Under the pieces are notes generated by a model that had not been told where the DNA came from, did no database searches, and saw nothing but the letters and a program-made list of their open reading frames with translations. A stretch of 35,577 bases of DNA, from contig CAMDBL010000016.1 in the NCBI GenBank assembly GCA_945889015.1, forward strand, positions 1 through 35,577, given 5' to 3'. Below are positions 3,742 through 28,198 of the stretch, piece by piece. The number at the start of each line of letters is the position of its first letter. The first letter of the stretch is position 1. Origin of the DNA: Devosia equisanguinis (GTDB lineage Bacteria; Pseudomonadota; Alphaproteobacteria; Rhizobiales; Hyphomicrobiaceae). Position numbers and translations under genes: made by a program.

Positions 3742-4887
3742 GGGCGGGTAGAGCCAAGCTGTGTCGTACTTTCTGGTGGGTCTCTGAGCCTGCCTCGTTG
3801 CTTGAGCCCGTCGAAGTCCCTGAAGTGCCGTTACTCTCAGGCGCCGCTCTCCCGGCTTCCACAACCAGGAATATCGAGATACTTCCCTAAATGCGCGCTG
3901 ATATTCTTCGATTGAACGGTCAAGCTGCCGGTCTTCGACGACGATATGTCCAATGCGGTTGCGAATGTAGGCGTTGACGTAGTGCATTTCAGCTTTTTCC
4001 ACTGTCAGCCATCGGCCCGATAGATGGCTGCCGGCTATTGCCAATGCTTCTTCGATGAGTGCGACAGCGTTAGCGCTGCCAGCTACAGCAAGCGCCTGCT
4101 CGATTTCAGCCAATGCCCTCTTGGCGCGAGCGGCCGCCAATCGGCGTTGTTGGATATCTGGATGGTCTCGAGACACTATGGCCAGTCTTCCGAATGCCTT
4201 TCGAGCTTCATCCCAGCGCTGCAAGCGCCTGAGTTGAATGGCTTCATACTCACGCGCCTCAAGCCGATGCCCGTCGCCTGGGATTCGCAGTGCCATTCTG
4301 AAGGCTGAGAGTGCTTCGCGATCCAGCTTGGCTTGACGGCCCGGCGATGTCTGTCGCCCCGCCCTGGCCGCTGCCACCGCCCCGTGCAGAATATGCGCCG
4401 TCGCCAGTTGATCTCGATGGTGCTTCAGCGTCTCTGTTGCGGTATGCATTCGGCGGTTGATTTGGGTCTGCGCGCCCTCCAGTCGGCGTGACGCGCGCTG
4501 CTCGATGCTGCTCCACGGCAGGAAACCGGCCCAGCCACGATCTTTCAGTAATCGCCGCAAAGGCCAGACCGCAAACAGTGGAGCTGCAAAGTTTCGCCCC
4601 GGTCCGGGACGCTCGATCAGTGTCAAGACATCACGTCTTGCCCCGTGCAGCCGCGCGTTCTGGTCCGCGAGATAGGTAGCGAGCCGCTTGTGCAGCACCT
4701 TCTCGCGATACCACCACCATTTCCAGACGCCGAAGGCGAAGCCCGCAAGCCCGAAGAGTGCCTGGATATGGTCGCGCACCCAGGTCTGCATTCCCGGTAC
4801 GAGATCGAGAACGTGAGAAAGCTCGCCGCCATTCTTCGTGAGCAGCAATAGAAGCTGACACTTCAGGTCAGAGGCCCCGCACTCCAT
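3634..4887 (-). CDS. Membrane-anchored TPR/helical-repeat-like hypothetical protein
   Basis: 417-aa ORF; N-terminal hydrophobic segment (ALFGLAGFAFGVWKWWWYREK) then alpha-helical repeat-like sequence (YEAIQLRRLQRWDEARKAFGRLAIV; IEEALAIAGSHLSGRWLTVEKAEMHYVNAY) and a disordered polar tail. Confidence 0.65.
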   Translation of the reverse strand: MECGASDLKCQLLLLLTKNGGELSHVLDLVPGMQTWVRDHIQALFGLAGFAFGVWKWWWYREKVLHKRLATYLADQNARLHGARRDVLTLIERPGPGRNFAAPLFAVWPLRRLLKDRGWAGFLPWSSIEQRASRRLEGAQTQINRRMHTATETLKHHRDQLATAHILHGAVAAARAGRQTSPGRQAKLDREALSAFRMALRIPGDGHRLEAREYEAIQLRRLQRWDEARKAFGRLAIVSRDHPDIQQRRLAAARAKRALAEIEQALAVAGSANAVALIEEALAIAGSHLSGRWLTVEKAEMHYVNAYIRNRIGHIVVEDRQLDRSIEEYQRAFREVSRYSWLWKPGERRLRVTALQGLRRAQATRQAQRPTRKYDTAWLYPPSDEPQNPPAAVGDAGSKKSIGEAAKQDGVDDAKKA

Positions 4888-5021
4888 ATGCGCCCCCGCG
4901 CAAACGCCGCATACATATGTTTAACTATGTGTTAACCTCTCTCGGGGTGCAAGCATGAGGTGTGATGCTGGGCCGAATGTGGAATCGGAGGATTGGGTCC
5001 CTGTGGGCGTCCTGCCTGAGT

Positions 5022-5062
5022 AGGCTCGGGAGGCGGTCCCCGGCTTGCCCGCCTGCGAGCCT
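5022..5062. promoter_or_regulatory. Stem-loop in divergent intergenic region upstream of the SDR gene
   Basis: AGGCTCGGGAGGCGG - tccccggcttgc - CCGCCTGCGAGCCT, near-perfect inverted repeat. Confidence 0.55.
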
Positions 5063-23275: not shown

Positions 23276-24220
23276 TCAACGCCTCCGTTCGACGCGGGCC
23301 GCACGCGGCGCGGGACTCGCGGCAGTGCCGGGCACCTGATCGGTCGCGGGTGCGTGCGGCGCGCCGTCGAGGTCGTGGCGATGGTCGTGATCGTGGTGAT
23401 AGACGCCGAACGCCAGCGCCGCCTCGTTGCCGAACAGGCGCACGTACTCGGGATGGCGGGCGACCGTGTGGGGCACGCCCGAGCAGCACACGTGCCGATT
23501 GAGGCAAATGACCCGGTCCGATTGCGCCATCACCACGTGCAGGTCGTGACTGATCAGCAGCACGCCGAAGCCGCGCTCCGCCCGCAGCTTTCCGATCAGC
23601 GTGTAGAGTTCGGCCTCGCCGACATAGTCGACGCCGGCGACCGGCTCGTCGAGCACCAGAAGATGCGGCCGCCTGAGCAGCGCGCGCGCCAGCAGCACGC
23701 GCTGCAACTCGCCGCCGGAGAGCCTGTCGATCTGCTGGTCGGCGATGGCGCCGGCGCCGACCTCGTCCAGTGCCTTCATCACCTCGTCGTCCGGGCTCGG
23801 TTGGCCGAGCGTCAGGAACCGCGTCACCGTCAGCGGGATCGAGCGCTCGATGTCGAAGCGCTGGGGCACATAGCCGACGATGAGGCCGGACGCGCGCGCG
23901 ACCTGTCCGGCATCAGGCCACTCGAGCCCGAGCATGACGCGGACCAGCGTGGTCTTGCCGGCGCCGTTCGGGCCGATCAGAGTCAAGATCTCGCCCGCCG
24001 ACACGTCGAGATCGATGTCCTCGAGGATGCGCCGGCCCGTTTTGGCGAGGCCGACGCCGCGGGCGCTGAGCAGCACGCCGCCGAGCGCGGGTGCGGAAGG
24101 CGGCAGTGGCACATGGGAATGATCGTGCCCGTGGCCGTGGGCATGACCGTGGTGATGATGCGGCTGCGTGTGGCCGCGGCAGGTGTCGGTCTCGCCGGTG
24201 ATCGCCGTGCGGTCCTGCAT
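23276..24220 (-). CDS. znuC: Zinc ABC transporter ATP-binding protein ZnuC
   Basis: LIGPNGAGKTTLVRVMLGLEWPD, LSGGELQRVLLARALLRRPHLLVLDEPVAGVD; N-terminal His-rich HHHHGHAHGHGHDHSH and C-terminal HHDHDHRHD. Confidence 0.94.
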   Translation of the reverse strand: MQDRTAITGETDTCRGHTQPHHHHGHAHGHGHDHSHVPLPPSAPALGGVLLSARGVGLAKTGRRILEDIDLDVSAGEILTLIGPNGAGKTTLVRVMLGLEWPDAGQVARASGLIVGYVPQRFDIERSIPLTVTRFLTLGQPSPDDEVMKALDEVGAGAIADQQIDRLSGGELQRVLLARALLRRPHLLVLDEPVAGVDYVGEAELYTLIGKLRAERGFGVLLISHDLHVVMAQSDRVICLNRHVCCSGVPHTVARHPEYVRLFGNEAALAFGVYHHDHDHRHDLDGAPHAPATDQVPGTAASPAPRAARVERRR

Positions 24221-24246
24221 CGGGCTGTCCCTTCTCTCCCGGCCGC

Positions 24247-24732
24247 TCACGCGCAGTTGCCGCAGACGCCGGAGACCTCGACGATCGAGGCGGACGGCTT
24301 GAAGTGAGCCTTCGCCGCTGCCGCGTCGATCGCTTTCAGCACGGTGTCGCCGGCGACCTCGGCCACGTCGCCGCAATGCTGGCAGGTCAGTACCACCTGC
24401 ACCGCGCCGGCCCCGTGGTCGCCGTGGCAGGCGAAGTAGGCGTTGCGACTTTCCAGCCGATGCACCACGCCGGCCTCGAGCAGCGCGTCGAGCGCGCGAT
24501 AGATCGAGACCGGTGCGAGCCGCGTGCCTTTCTTGGCGAGACGCTCCTGCACATCATAGGCGCCGACAGCGGCATGCGAGCCGGCGATTTCCTCGAATAC
24601 CAGGCGCCGCAGGTCCGTCAGCCGGATCTGCTTGGCCGCGAAAGCCACGCGCACGCGCTCCAGTGCGTCCTCCATGCAGGGATGGTGGTCGTGCCCATGC
24701 TCGGGAAAGATCGGGGGCGTGGGGTGGCGCAT
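24247..24732 (-). CDS. zur: Fur-family zinc uptake regulator Zur
   Basis: IRLTDLRRLVFEEIAGSHAAVGAYDVQERLAKKGTRLAPVSIYRALDALLEAGVVHRLESRNAYFACHGDH, CQHCGD and CGNC metal motifs; same strand and just upstream of znuC-znuB. Confidence 0.93.
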   Translation of the reverse strand: MRHPTPPIFPEHGHDHHPCMEDALERVRVAFAAKQIRLTDLRRLVFEEIAGSHAAVGAYDVQERLAKKGTRLAPVSIYRALDALLEAGVVHRLESRNAYFACHGDHGAGAVQVVLTCQHCGDVAEVAGDTVLKAIDAAAAKAHFKPSASIVEVSGVCGNCA

Positions 24733-25006: not shown

Positions 25007-26182
25007 ATGTTCATGTCCAGCGGGTCGGTTTCACCAGCATACATCGTGGCGGCACGACGCAGTGCTCTCGGCCGCATCGGCGGCCTGCACCGCAACCGGC
25101 GGATCGAGGATCTGGCGGCACCCGTGGTCGGCGCGGCGCTCGAGGACTGCGGCATCGCCCCCGGGCGCGTCGACGAGGTGATCATCGGCAACGCCAGCGC
25201 GGGTGGCAATCCTGCCCGCCTGATCGCACTCACCGCCGGGCTGCCGGAAGCGGCGGCTGCCTCGACCATCGACCGGCAGTGCGCGTCGGGGCTCGACGCG
25301 ATCCTCAACGCCGCACGGCTGATCAACCTCGGCGAAGCGAGTGTGATCGTCGCGGGCGGCGCGGAATCGCTGTCGACCGCGCCGTGGCGGATCGCCAAGC
25401 CGAAGAGCATCTATCAGACGCCGCATTTCATCGGCCTGGAGCCGGTCAACTCCGAGGCGAGCGAGGTGTTGCCGCAGCTCGAGGCAGCCGAGGACATGGC
25501 CCGCGCGCTGAAGATCGGCCGCTCCCAGCAGGACGCCTATGCCATCAAGTCGTTCCTCAAGGCCGAGCAGGCGAGGGACGCGCGCCGCTTCGTCGGCGAG
25601 ATTGTGCCGCTGAAGGCCAATGCCGACGAGGCACGCGACCAGAGCGCAGTCGATCCGGACCCCGACGAGATGCAGCAGATGCTGCCGTTCAACCAACCGG
25701 ACGGGACGCTGACCGCAGGCAACACCAGCGCTTTGCATGACGGTGCCGCGATCGTGGTGATGGTGTCGGAGGCGGTCTGGATCGAGCTCGGCAAGCCCGC
25801 CGCGCTGAAGCTGGTCGCCGGCGCCACTCAGGGCGTGTCCCACGACCGCGAAGGCTGGGCGCCGATCGCTGCAGTGACCAAGCTCTACGGCCGGCTCAAC
25901 GGCCACAAGCCGCAGGATATCGGCGTGTTCGAGGTCGCCGAGACATCGGCGGCGCAGGCGATCGCGATCGGCGACGCGCTGGGCCTCGACGACAGCCGTC
26001 TCAACCCTGACGGTGGCGCGATCGTGCGTGGCCATCCGCTCGGTGCGTCGGGGGCGGTGCTGGTGGTGCGCCTGTTCACGCGCATGGTCCGCTCGAAGGC
26101 GGCCGACAAGCCGCGCTACGGCGTCGCCGCGCAAGGCGCCGTCGGCGGCATGGGCTTGGCGGCACTGTTCGAGGGCGTCTAG
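25007..26182 (+). CDS. Thiolase family protein (divergent acetyl-CoA acyltransferase homologue)
   Basis: STIDRQCASGLDAILNAARLI (nucleophile Cys), RGHPLGASGAVLVVRLFTRM; C-terminal GVAAQGAVGGMGLAALFEG. Start 25007 or 25013; the ORF begins at 24980. Confidence 0.9.
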   Translation: MFMSSGSVSPAYIVAARRSALGRIGGLHRNRRIEDLAAPVVGAALEDCGIAPGRVDEVIIGNASAGGNPARLIALTAGLPEAAAASTIDRQCASGLDAILNAARLINLGEASVIVAGGAESLSTAPWRIAKPKSIYQTPHFIGLEPVNSEASEVLPQLEAAEDMARALKIGRSQQDAYAIKSFLKAEQARDARRFVGEIVPLKANADEARDQSAVDPDPDEMQQMLPFNQPDGTLTAGNTSALHDGAAIVVMVSEAVWIELGKPAALKLVAGATQGVSHDREGWAPIAAVTKLYGRLNGHKPQDIGVFEVAETSAAQAIAIGDALGLDDSRLNPDGGAIVRGHPLGASGAVLVVRLFTRMVRSKAADKPRYGVAAQGAVGGMGLAALFEGV

Positions 26183-26500: not shown

Positions 26501-28198
26501 GTGCCCCGGAGCCTTCTTCTCGTGTTCGCTCGTTACAGCACCTGGCGTCGGACGCATCGGGCCGCGGATTTGCGCGCGCTGGCCCTGCACCGGGGGTTGC
26601 TGCCGACGTGGGGCGTGCTCGCGCTGTCACTCGCTGGCACCGGCCTGGCTGCCTCTGTCGCGCACCGGGCCGGCACCGCCACTCTCGTCCAGGAGTTCGA
26701 GACGACGATGGTGCGGGTCGAGAGCGAGATCGACCGGGTGATGTCCTCGTATCAGCGGACGCTGCTGGCGGGGGCCGGGCTGTTCGCCGCCAGCCCCACC
26801 CTTTCGCGGGATGGCTGGGGAGCGTTCGCGGCCAACCTCGCCATCGATCGCAATTTTCCGGGTATCCAGGGCCTCGGCTTCGCCAGGATCACTGATGTCG
26901 GGGACGGCAGCCTTGCCGATCCCGACGCGGCCAAGACCTCGATCGCGTATCTCGAGCCACGCGATTGGCGCAACGAGCGCGCGCTCGGCTACGACATGTT
27001 CGCCGAGCCGGTGCGCCGTGCGGCGATGCGGGGGGCGCGCGACACCGGCCTGCCGCGATTGACGCGGCGGGTGACACTTGTTCAGGAGACCGGCCAGGAC
27101 CAGCAGCCGGGCGTGCTGATGTATCTGCCGGTGTACGCCGGTCAGCCGCAATCGGTCGAGGAACGGCGCCGCGCCGCGATCGGCTACGTCTACGCCGCGT
27201 TTCGGATGCACGACCTCTTGACGCGAACGGTGGAACTCCAACTTCCGAAGTTGCTGGAGCACGTGCACCTGCGTCTCCTCGACGCCCCGCCGAAGGCCGG
27301 CGGGGAGCTGCTGTACGAGAGCGATGAAGCGGCCCCGGGCCCCGATACATTCCGCGGCCGGCTGAAAGGCACGCGCGATCTGCCTGTCGCGGGACAGCAA
27401 TGGCACATCGAGCTGGCGGCGAAGCAATCCTTCGGCGGCGCGGCGATAGGCACGTCGCCGTGGCTGGTGGCGGGGCTCGGCACCCTGCTCAGCCTTGTCA
27501 TCACGGCGATCGCGGCGGCGTTGTCGCTGTCACGGGCCGCGGCGGTCGAGGCGCAGCGCGGCCTGGCCCTCGAGGTGGCCGCGCGCACCCAGGCGGAGCG
27601 GCAGGTGCAACTCGCCAACCAGGAGCTGATCCACCGCGTAAAGAACATGATGGGGGTGATTTCCTCCATCGCGACGCAGACCGCCCGGTTCACACCCGAT
27701 CCCGCCCAGTTCATCTCTGCTTTTCGAGACCGGCTGGCGGCCCTCGGCCGAGTACACGATCACCTCAGGCCGGGCTCGCGTCACTATGCCGACCTCGGCG
27801 AGTTGGTGCGCGAGGTGCTGGCCCCCTACACGGATCTGCGCCCCGACCGGCTGCTGATCGCCGGTCCGCCGGTCGACGTGCCCTCCCAGGCGGCCCTGAT
27901 GTTGAGCCTCGTCGTCAACGAGCTGGCGACCAACGCCATCAAGTACGGCGCATGGTCGACGGCGGACGGGCGGATCGAGCTGGCTTGGCTGGTGTCGGGC
28001 GAAGGCAAGGACCGCGTGTTGCAGATGGAGTGGCGCGAGAGTGGCGGACCGCCGGTCGCCCCTCCGACACACCGAGGCTTCGGCTCGAACGTGCTCAAGT
28101 TCGCCGTTGAGCGGGGCCTCAAGGGGACGTTCTTGCCGGCCTACGAGCCTGCTGGCTTTCGTTGCACCTGGTCTTTCAACCTGGAGGGCGCCAACTGA
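26501..28198 (+). CDS. CHASE-domain sensor histidine kinase, HWE family
   Basis: GTG start; N-terminal TM, CHASE-like FETTMVRVESEIDRVMSSYQRTLLAGAGLFAASPTLSRDGWGAFAANLAIDRNFPGIQGLGFARI; LIHRVKNMMGVISSIATQTAR H-box; VVNELATNAIKYGAWS; MEWRESGGPP. Confidence 0.92.
   Translation: MPRSLLLVFARYSTWRRTHRAADLRALALHRGLLPTWGVLALSLAGTGLAASVAHRAGTATLVQEFETTMVRVESEIDRVMSSYQRTLLAGAGLFAASPTLSRDGWGAFAANLAIDRNFPGIQGLGFARITDVGDGSLADPDAAKTSIAYLEPRDWRNERALGYDMFAEPVRRAAMRGARDTGLPRLTRRVTLVQETGQDQQPGVLMYLPVYAGQPQSVEERRRAAIGYVYAAFRMHDLLTRTVELQLPKLLEHVHLRLLDAPPKAGGELLYESDEAAPGPDTFRGRLKGTRDLPVAGQQWHIELAAKQSFGGAAIGTSPWLVAGLGTLLSLVITAIAAALSLSRAAAVEAQRGLALEVAARTQAERQVQLANQELIHRVKNMMGVISSIATQTARFTPDPAQFISAFRDRLAALGRVHDHLRPGSRHYADLGELVREVLAPYTDLRPDRLLIAGPPVDVPSQAALMLSLVVNELATNAIKYGAWSTADGRIELAWLVSGEGKDRVLQMEWRESGGPPVAPPTHRGFGSNVLKFAVERGLKGTFLPAYEPAGFRCTWSFNLEGAN

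Follow-up and report, generated by a model that had tools for sequence, protein, structure and literature searches.

A YhfS-clade thiolase-like protein of Devosia equisanguinis without the catalytic base Cys378 and the Asn and Phe of NEAF

The thiolase-like gene and its flanks

The window, the whole stretch of 35,577 nucleotides of Devosia equisanguinis DNA that was analysed, has an open frame without interruption at 25007-26182 on the forward strand. The gene encodes a YhfS-type thiolase-like protein of 391 amino acids (P0001), which matches Thiolase_N (1.8e-53) and Thiolase_C (1.1e-20) in Pfam. The score with TIGR01930 is 284 bits, which is above the cut-off. The score with the YhfS model NF005212 is 238.7 bits, below the cut-off of 498, so it is the tree and the gene order given below that tie the protein to YhfS.

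Residue equivalences were taken from an alignment with the Zoogloea thiolase and four canonical thiolases from the window genome. The nucleophile Cys89 of Zoogloea is kept as Cys92 in DRQCASG (codon at 25280-25282, forward strand), and His348 is kept as His343 in RGHPLGASG (26033-26035, forward strand). The catalytic base Cys378 is replaced by Gly377 (26135-26137, forward strand), as seen in the translation, the alignment and the tree. AETS replaces NEAF at residues 311-314 (25937-25948, forward strand); this changes Asn316 to Ala311 and Phe319 to Ser314, and Glu317 is retained as Glu312. The original prediction had placed the gene and its motifs correctly, with the nucleophile Cys and the GHPLGASG His intact and Gly in the position of the second catalytic Cys. 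It also described NEAF as missing, which holds for the Asn and the Phe but not for the Glu.

In the published thiolase mechanism Cys378 is the base, and Asn316 and His348 form the enolate oxyanion hole (PMC3406046). The protein has the thiolase fold and the equivalents of Cys89 and His348 expected of a canonical beta-ketothiolase, but has Ala311 in place of Asn316 and Gly377 in place of the Cys378 base of CxG. Decarboxylating enzymes of the KAS type carry His or Asn in the NEAF as well as in the GHP position, and Ala311 departs from this too. The only other Cys of the protein is Cys48 (LEDCGI), which is outside of the conserved positions. Since Cys48 is not conserved, the base role of Cys378 is not taken over elsewhere, an escape that the original prediction had allowed for.

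The nearest solved structures are those of the Zoogloea biosynthetic thiolase, at about 36% identity. An AlphaFold model of the protein (pLDDT 86, pTM 0.89) superposes on the Zoogloea thiolase with a TM score of 0.87, which suggests that the fold is undamaged. The protein therefore resembles the Zoogloea PhaA-type thiolase in its predicted fold, nucleophile Cys and GHP His, but differs from it in lacking Asn316, Phe319 and Cys378. The modelled fold and the TIGR01930 score would suit an ordinary thiolase in which the absent residues are structurally compensated. However, there is no replacement Cys, the base and the enolate-stabilising functions are both altered, and the nucleophile and the His are gone in sister copies, which makes this explanation extremely improbable. 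The published mechanism and the conservation of the substitutions (see below) support the earlier view that these residues are unfit for ordinary thiolase chemistry.

The gene is flanked by zinc-related genes. The divergent neighbour is zur, a Fur-family zinc regulator (24247-24732, reverse strand, start inferred by eye), and next to it is znuC, which encodes a zinc ABC transporter ATPase (23276-24376, reverse strand, as the longest open frame). As far as shown, znuC belongs to a conserved zur-znuCB-ispG flank and not to the function of the thiolase. The fixed position beside zur-znuCB could indicate a Zur-regulated component of zinc homeostasis, and the thiolase is indeed divergent from zur in many Hyphomicrobiaceae. 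Zur-like palindromes (GTTATCCTATAAC and GTTATATTATAAC) are present in the zur-thiolase intergenic regions of two relatives (L129 and L131), but there is none in the window or in most relatives, and regulation by Zur was rejected for want of a conserved box. The same flanks also occur in genomes without the thiolase, where zur adjoins a membrane-protein gene and tblastn detects no remnant of the thiolase gene. The other flank, a protein of about 1,100 amino acids, is found in 98 of 103 family genomes irrespective of the thiolase. A role in zinc homeostasis is thus very doubtful.

The 1,100-residue protein appears by eye to be a membrane and coiled-coil protein, and it often adjoins the thiolase (L122, 10471-13830). 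It has no match in Pfam or NCBIfam, and in the window genome it is on a separate contig (G000 contig C98, 144-2582). A pairing of the thiolase with this downstream protein was rejected, since the protein occurs with or without the thiolase. Second copies near the membrane protein in two genomes (G102 and G028) were also discarded, as they are canonical thiolases. In the window the thiolase is followed by an open frame of 565 amino acids (26501-28198, forward strand) that looks by eye like a membrane sensor histidine kinase. It sits where most relatives carry the 1,100-residue protein, as would follow from a local rearrangement.

Loss of Cys378 and linkage to a YhfT-type ligase

The loss of Cys378 is a trait of the lineage and not a peculiarity of a single copy. 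A tree of 86 thiolases shows a single switch between presence and absence of Cys378, on a branch with an SH-aLRT of 100 and with 49 rows on one side; the same branch had a value of 99 in an earlier tree of 78 thiolases. Both trees are unrooted quick searches without bootstraps, in which the branching within the Cys378-less clade is partly unresolved. The Cys378-less side includes the window clade, Rhizobiales, Erwinia and Pantoea, other alphaproteobacteria and the YhfS proteins of Bacilli, one of which (L176, the gene in the Heyndrickxia locus L206) scores 624 bits with NF005212, above the cut-off. Cys378 was lost once, ancestrally to the YhfS clade, with the reservation that a single switch gives no direction and that a root inside the Cys378-less side could in principle mean a gain of Cys378. 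One diagnostic change, the loss of the base, now marks the whole YhfS clade, and the automatic annotation "acetyl-CoA acetyltransferase" is probably wrong across it.

Beyond the window clade, the genes for the thiolase and for a YhfT-type AMP-forming acyl-CoA ligase overlap or are directly adjacent. This coupling spans Bacilli to Rhizobium and Erwinia. Among 93 Cys378-less copies, 34 adjoin a ligase gene and 59 do not, although short contigs may conceal a ligase in a few of the latter. The ligase-adjacent copies all keep Cys89, Phe or Tyr at position 319, and His348 (34/34), and position 316 is Asn, or Met in three of them (NEA[F/Y] or MEA[F/Y]). Of the 59 copies that lack a neighbouring ligase gene, the window protein included, not one has the full set of Cys89, Phe/Tyr319 and His348. 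These counts are not phylogenetically independent, since most of the unlinked copies are one clade, and the correlation between ligase and erosion rests on few evolutionary events. In the newly examined loci of Bacilli, all 20 Cys378-less genes adjoin a ligase and none of the four Cys378-positive genes does. The original prediction treated the two losses together as those of a thiolase paralogue, and this misses their separate timing. According to the tree and gene order the loss of Cys378 is old and extends across the YhfS clade, whereas the loss of NEAF is later and confined to the copies without a ligase.

Many linked loci also carry a BioY or BioMNY gene in the same operon. These are the Erwinia locus L013, L135, L136, L137 and L150, three loci of Bacilli (L206, L258, L259) and two of alphaproteobacteria (L271, L272). 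The literature search found no report that pairs bioY with a thiolase, or bioMNY with an acyl-CoA synthetase. The L013 and Rhizobium etli p42f loci also have genes for a thioesterase and a zinc-type dehydrogenase.

YhfS of Bacilli resembles the window protein: it too belongs to the Cys378-less part of the tree, has Gly at position 378, and carries the nucleophile Cys and the GHP His. It differs in that NEAF is kept and that YhfT, and often BioY, is encoded next to it; the window gene has neither an adjacent ligase nor an adjacent BioY. The ligase-linked thiolases of Erwinia and Pantoea, about 40% identical to the window protein, also have Gly for Cys378. The R. etli p42f protein WP_042120039.1 is 88% identical to the thiolase of L139, which carries the same residues, including Gly for Cys378. 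Unlike the window protein, the R. etli, Erwinia and Pantoea thiolases have an intact NEAF and are in an operon with the CoA ligase, a thioesterase and a zinc-type dehydrogenase. The Erwinia operon additionally has BioMNY, and the window gene is without such neighbours.

Tree and alignment suggest that the ancestor of the YhfS clade lost the base Cys378 and acquired Gly or Ala instead. Gene order shows members that lie beside a YhfT-type ligase, often with BioY or BioMNY, and these keep the rest of the active site. In these members the ligase would make an acyl-CoA and the Cys would accept the acyl group, which might then go to a nucleophile or be condensed with a donor of the malonyl type; in the latter case Cys378 would be dispensable. 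Decarboxylative condensation, which had been proposed for the window protein, is therefore plausible for the ligase-linked members, but it is weak for the window protein because Asn316, which helps to form the enolate oxyanion hole, is absent. The copies without a ligase, including that of the window, have shed further active-site residues, and some the nucleophile Cys and/or the His.

Active-site erosion in the Hyphomicrobiaceae

Of 103 Hyphomicrobiaceae genomes, 54 have an orthologue, counted as a match with an E value of at most 1e-90. Cys378 is absent from all 52 copies that extend to this position, and the Phe of NEAF is Ser in 53 of the 54 copies. The substitutions thus recur in the orthologues, to an extent that is beyond chance or sequencing error. 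The Asn316 position is more variable, with Ser in 39 copies and Asn, Gly or Ala in the rest. The nucleophile Cys92 is replaced in five of the 54 copies (Ala twice, Thr, Ser and Asp), and His343 is replaced in eight (Gln in three, Leu in two, and Tyr, Asn and Arg). One or both of these residues are gone in 10/54 copies.

The remainder of the protein is well conserved, with 67 other sites at a conservation of at least 97% among the 54 copies. The least divergent pairs within genera have dN/dS values of 0.04-0.34 (Nei-Gojobori). The value is 0.095 between two copies that both carry C92A and H343Q (G028 and G030). These values indicate purifying selection, and thus the copies, including those without Cys92 or His343, are not decaying pseudogenes. 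In copies without a ligase, decay of the active site goes together with continued selection on the protein.

The window protein is probably an orphan within the YhfS clade that is not a functional beta-ketothiolase, has its Cys-His pair remaining, and is moving towards a retained pseudoenzyme. It would retain the fold, the acyl/CoA pocket and the Cys-His pair; since Asn316 is also gone, it may at most form an acyl-enzyme and carry out slow acyl transfer or hydrolysis. In the sister lineages a copy without the nucleophile would be incapable of covalent catalysis, and the pseudoenzyme presumably persists for binding or structural reasons. The loss of the nucleophile under continuing purifying selection is seen in the G028 and G030 copies, whereas the window copy retains Cys92. 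The earlier suggestion of a non-catalytic protein is accordingly well supported for the orthologues without Cys92 and/or His343, but it is no more than a possibility for the copy of D. equisanguinis, which keeps both residues.

Cys92 (49/54 copies) and His343 (45/53) are kept in most of the Hyphomicrobiaceae, which is beyond the expectation for useless residues. This retention, together with the near-invariance of H28, R31, R32, R128, S314, R341 and R355, favours an active enzyme of altered chemistry. Cys92 and His343 would then catalyse acyl transfer or the hydrolysis of acyl-CoA, in a pocket specific to the clade (Trp127, Arg128, Arg341, Arg355 and Ser314). However, His343 and Cys92 have been replaced separately several times, by different residues and with no relaxation of selection, and the enolate-stabilising Asn316 is also replaced in most copies. 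Such an enzyme is a real possibility, although the evidence leans away from it.

Other thiolase folds have also taken on different roles. Mycobacterium smegmatis TLP1 likewise has the thiolase fold with replaced catalytic motifs and no assigned thiolase function (PMC3406046). It differs in having lost all of the motifs, in being monomeric and in having an extra C-terminal domain, and its identity to the Zoogloea thiolase is 15% compared with about 36% for the window protein. The Sal and Ltp2 steroid aldolases and the PhlC-type acylases are repurposed thiolase folds too (PMC12329534), but they act together with a DUF35 partner, and Sal and Ltp2 carry motifs of the YDCY/YDHF type. No DUF35 gene was seen by eye near the window gene.

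The R. etli p42f or Bacillus operon on one side and a Hyphomicrobium orphan on the other provide pairs for testing the contrast between linked and orphaned members.

The biotin connection

The BirA (biotin) regulon is already known to include the yhfS-yhfT pair. In Staphylococcus aureus the pair, to which no function is assigned, is repressed by BirA, with biotin acting as the corepressor, and the same repression is given for Bacillus subtilis in review (PMC6391492, PMC7235819, PMC11089781). The link to BioY and BioMNY across the clade raises the question of whether the window protein also serves biotin metabolism, for example in the supply of a pimeloyl precursor. The window genome has bioBFDA; these genes lie in the order bioB-bioF-bioD-bioA on another contig (L220, G000:C103, 1530-5695), with no bioZ or bioC directly beside them, and the absence of an adjacent bioZ would leave room for such a supply. 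However, neither BioY nor a YhfT-type ligase was found in the window genome, where the best ligase match is generic (31% identity, 136 bits, compared with 172-272 bits for thiolase-adjacent ligases in related genomes). The thiolase is also kept in genomes without a bioB match (G023-G031) and missing from many genomes with bioB (such as G040-G054 and G079), and catalytic residues are gone in 10 orthologues. Since BioY is missing, the ligases are generic and the distribution of the thiolase is independent of bioB, a present role of the window protein in biotin metabolism is unlikely.

A broader proposal concerns the linked members. The Cys378-less YhfS proteins beside a ligase might catalyse a condensation or an acyl transfer within an uncharacterised pathway for biotin scarcity. 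In such a pathway a shortened biotin or pimelate precursor, scavenged and taken up by means of BioY, might for example be extended with the help of the reductase, hydratase and thioesterase genes that a part of the loci carry. The Hyphomicrobiaceae protein would then be a retained acyl-CoA-binding pseudoenzyme without a ligase. This combined proposal is speculative and rather unlikely as a whole.

In the Heyndrickxia locus (L206), bioY-yhfT-yhfS is followed by two short genes that resemble MaoC-like hydratases by eye (4293-5058, reverse strand), which suggests a longer acyl-CoA pathway at this locus. An oxadiazolone probe labels both FabH and S. aureus VraB (PMC9853856), and VraB is possibly YhfS.
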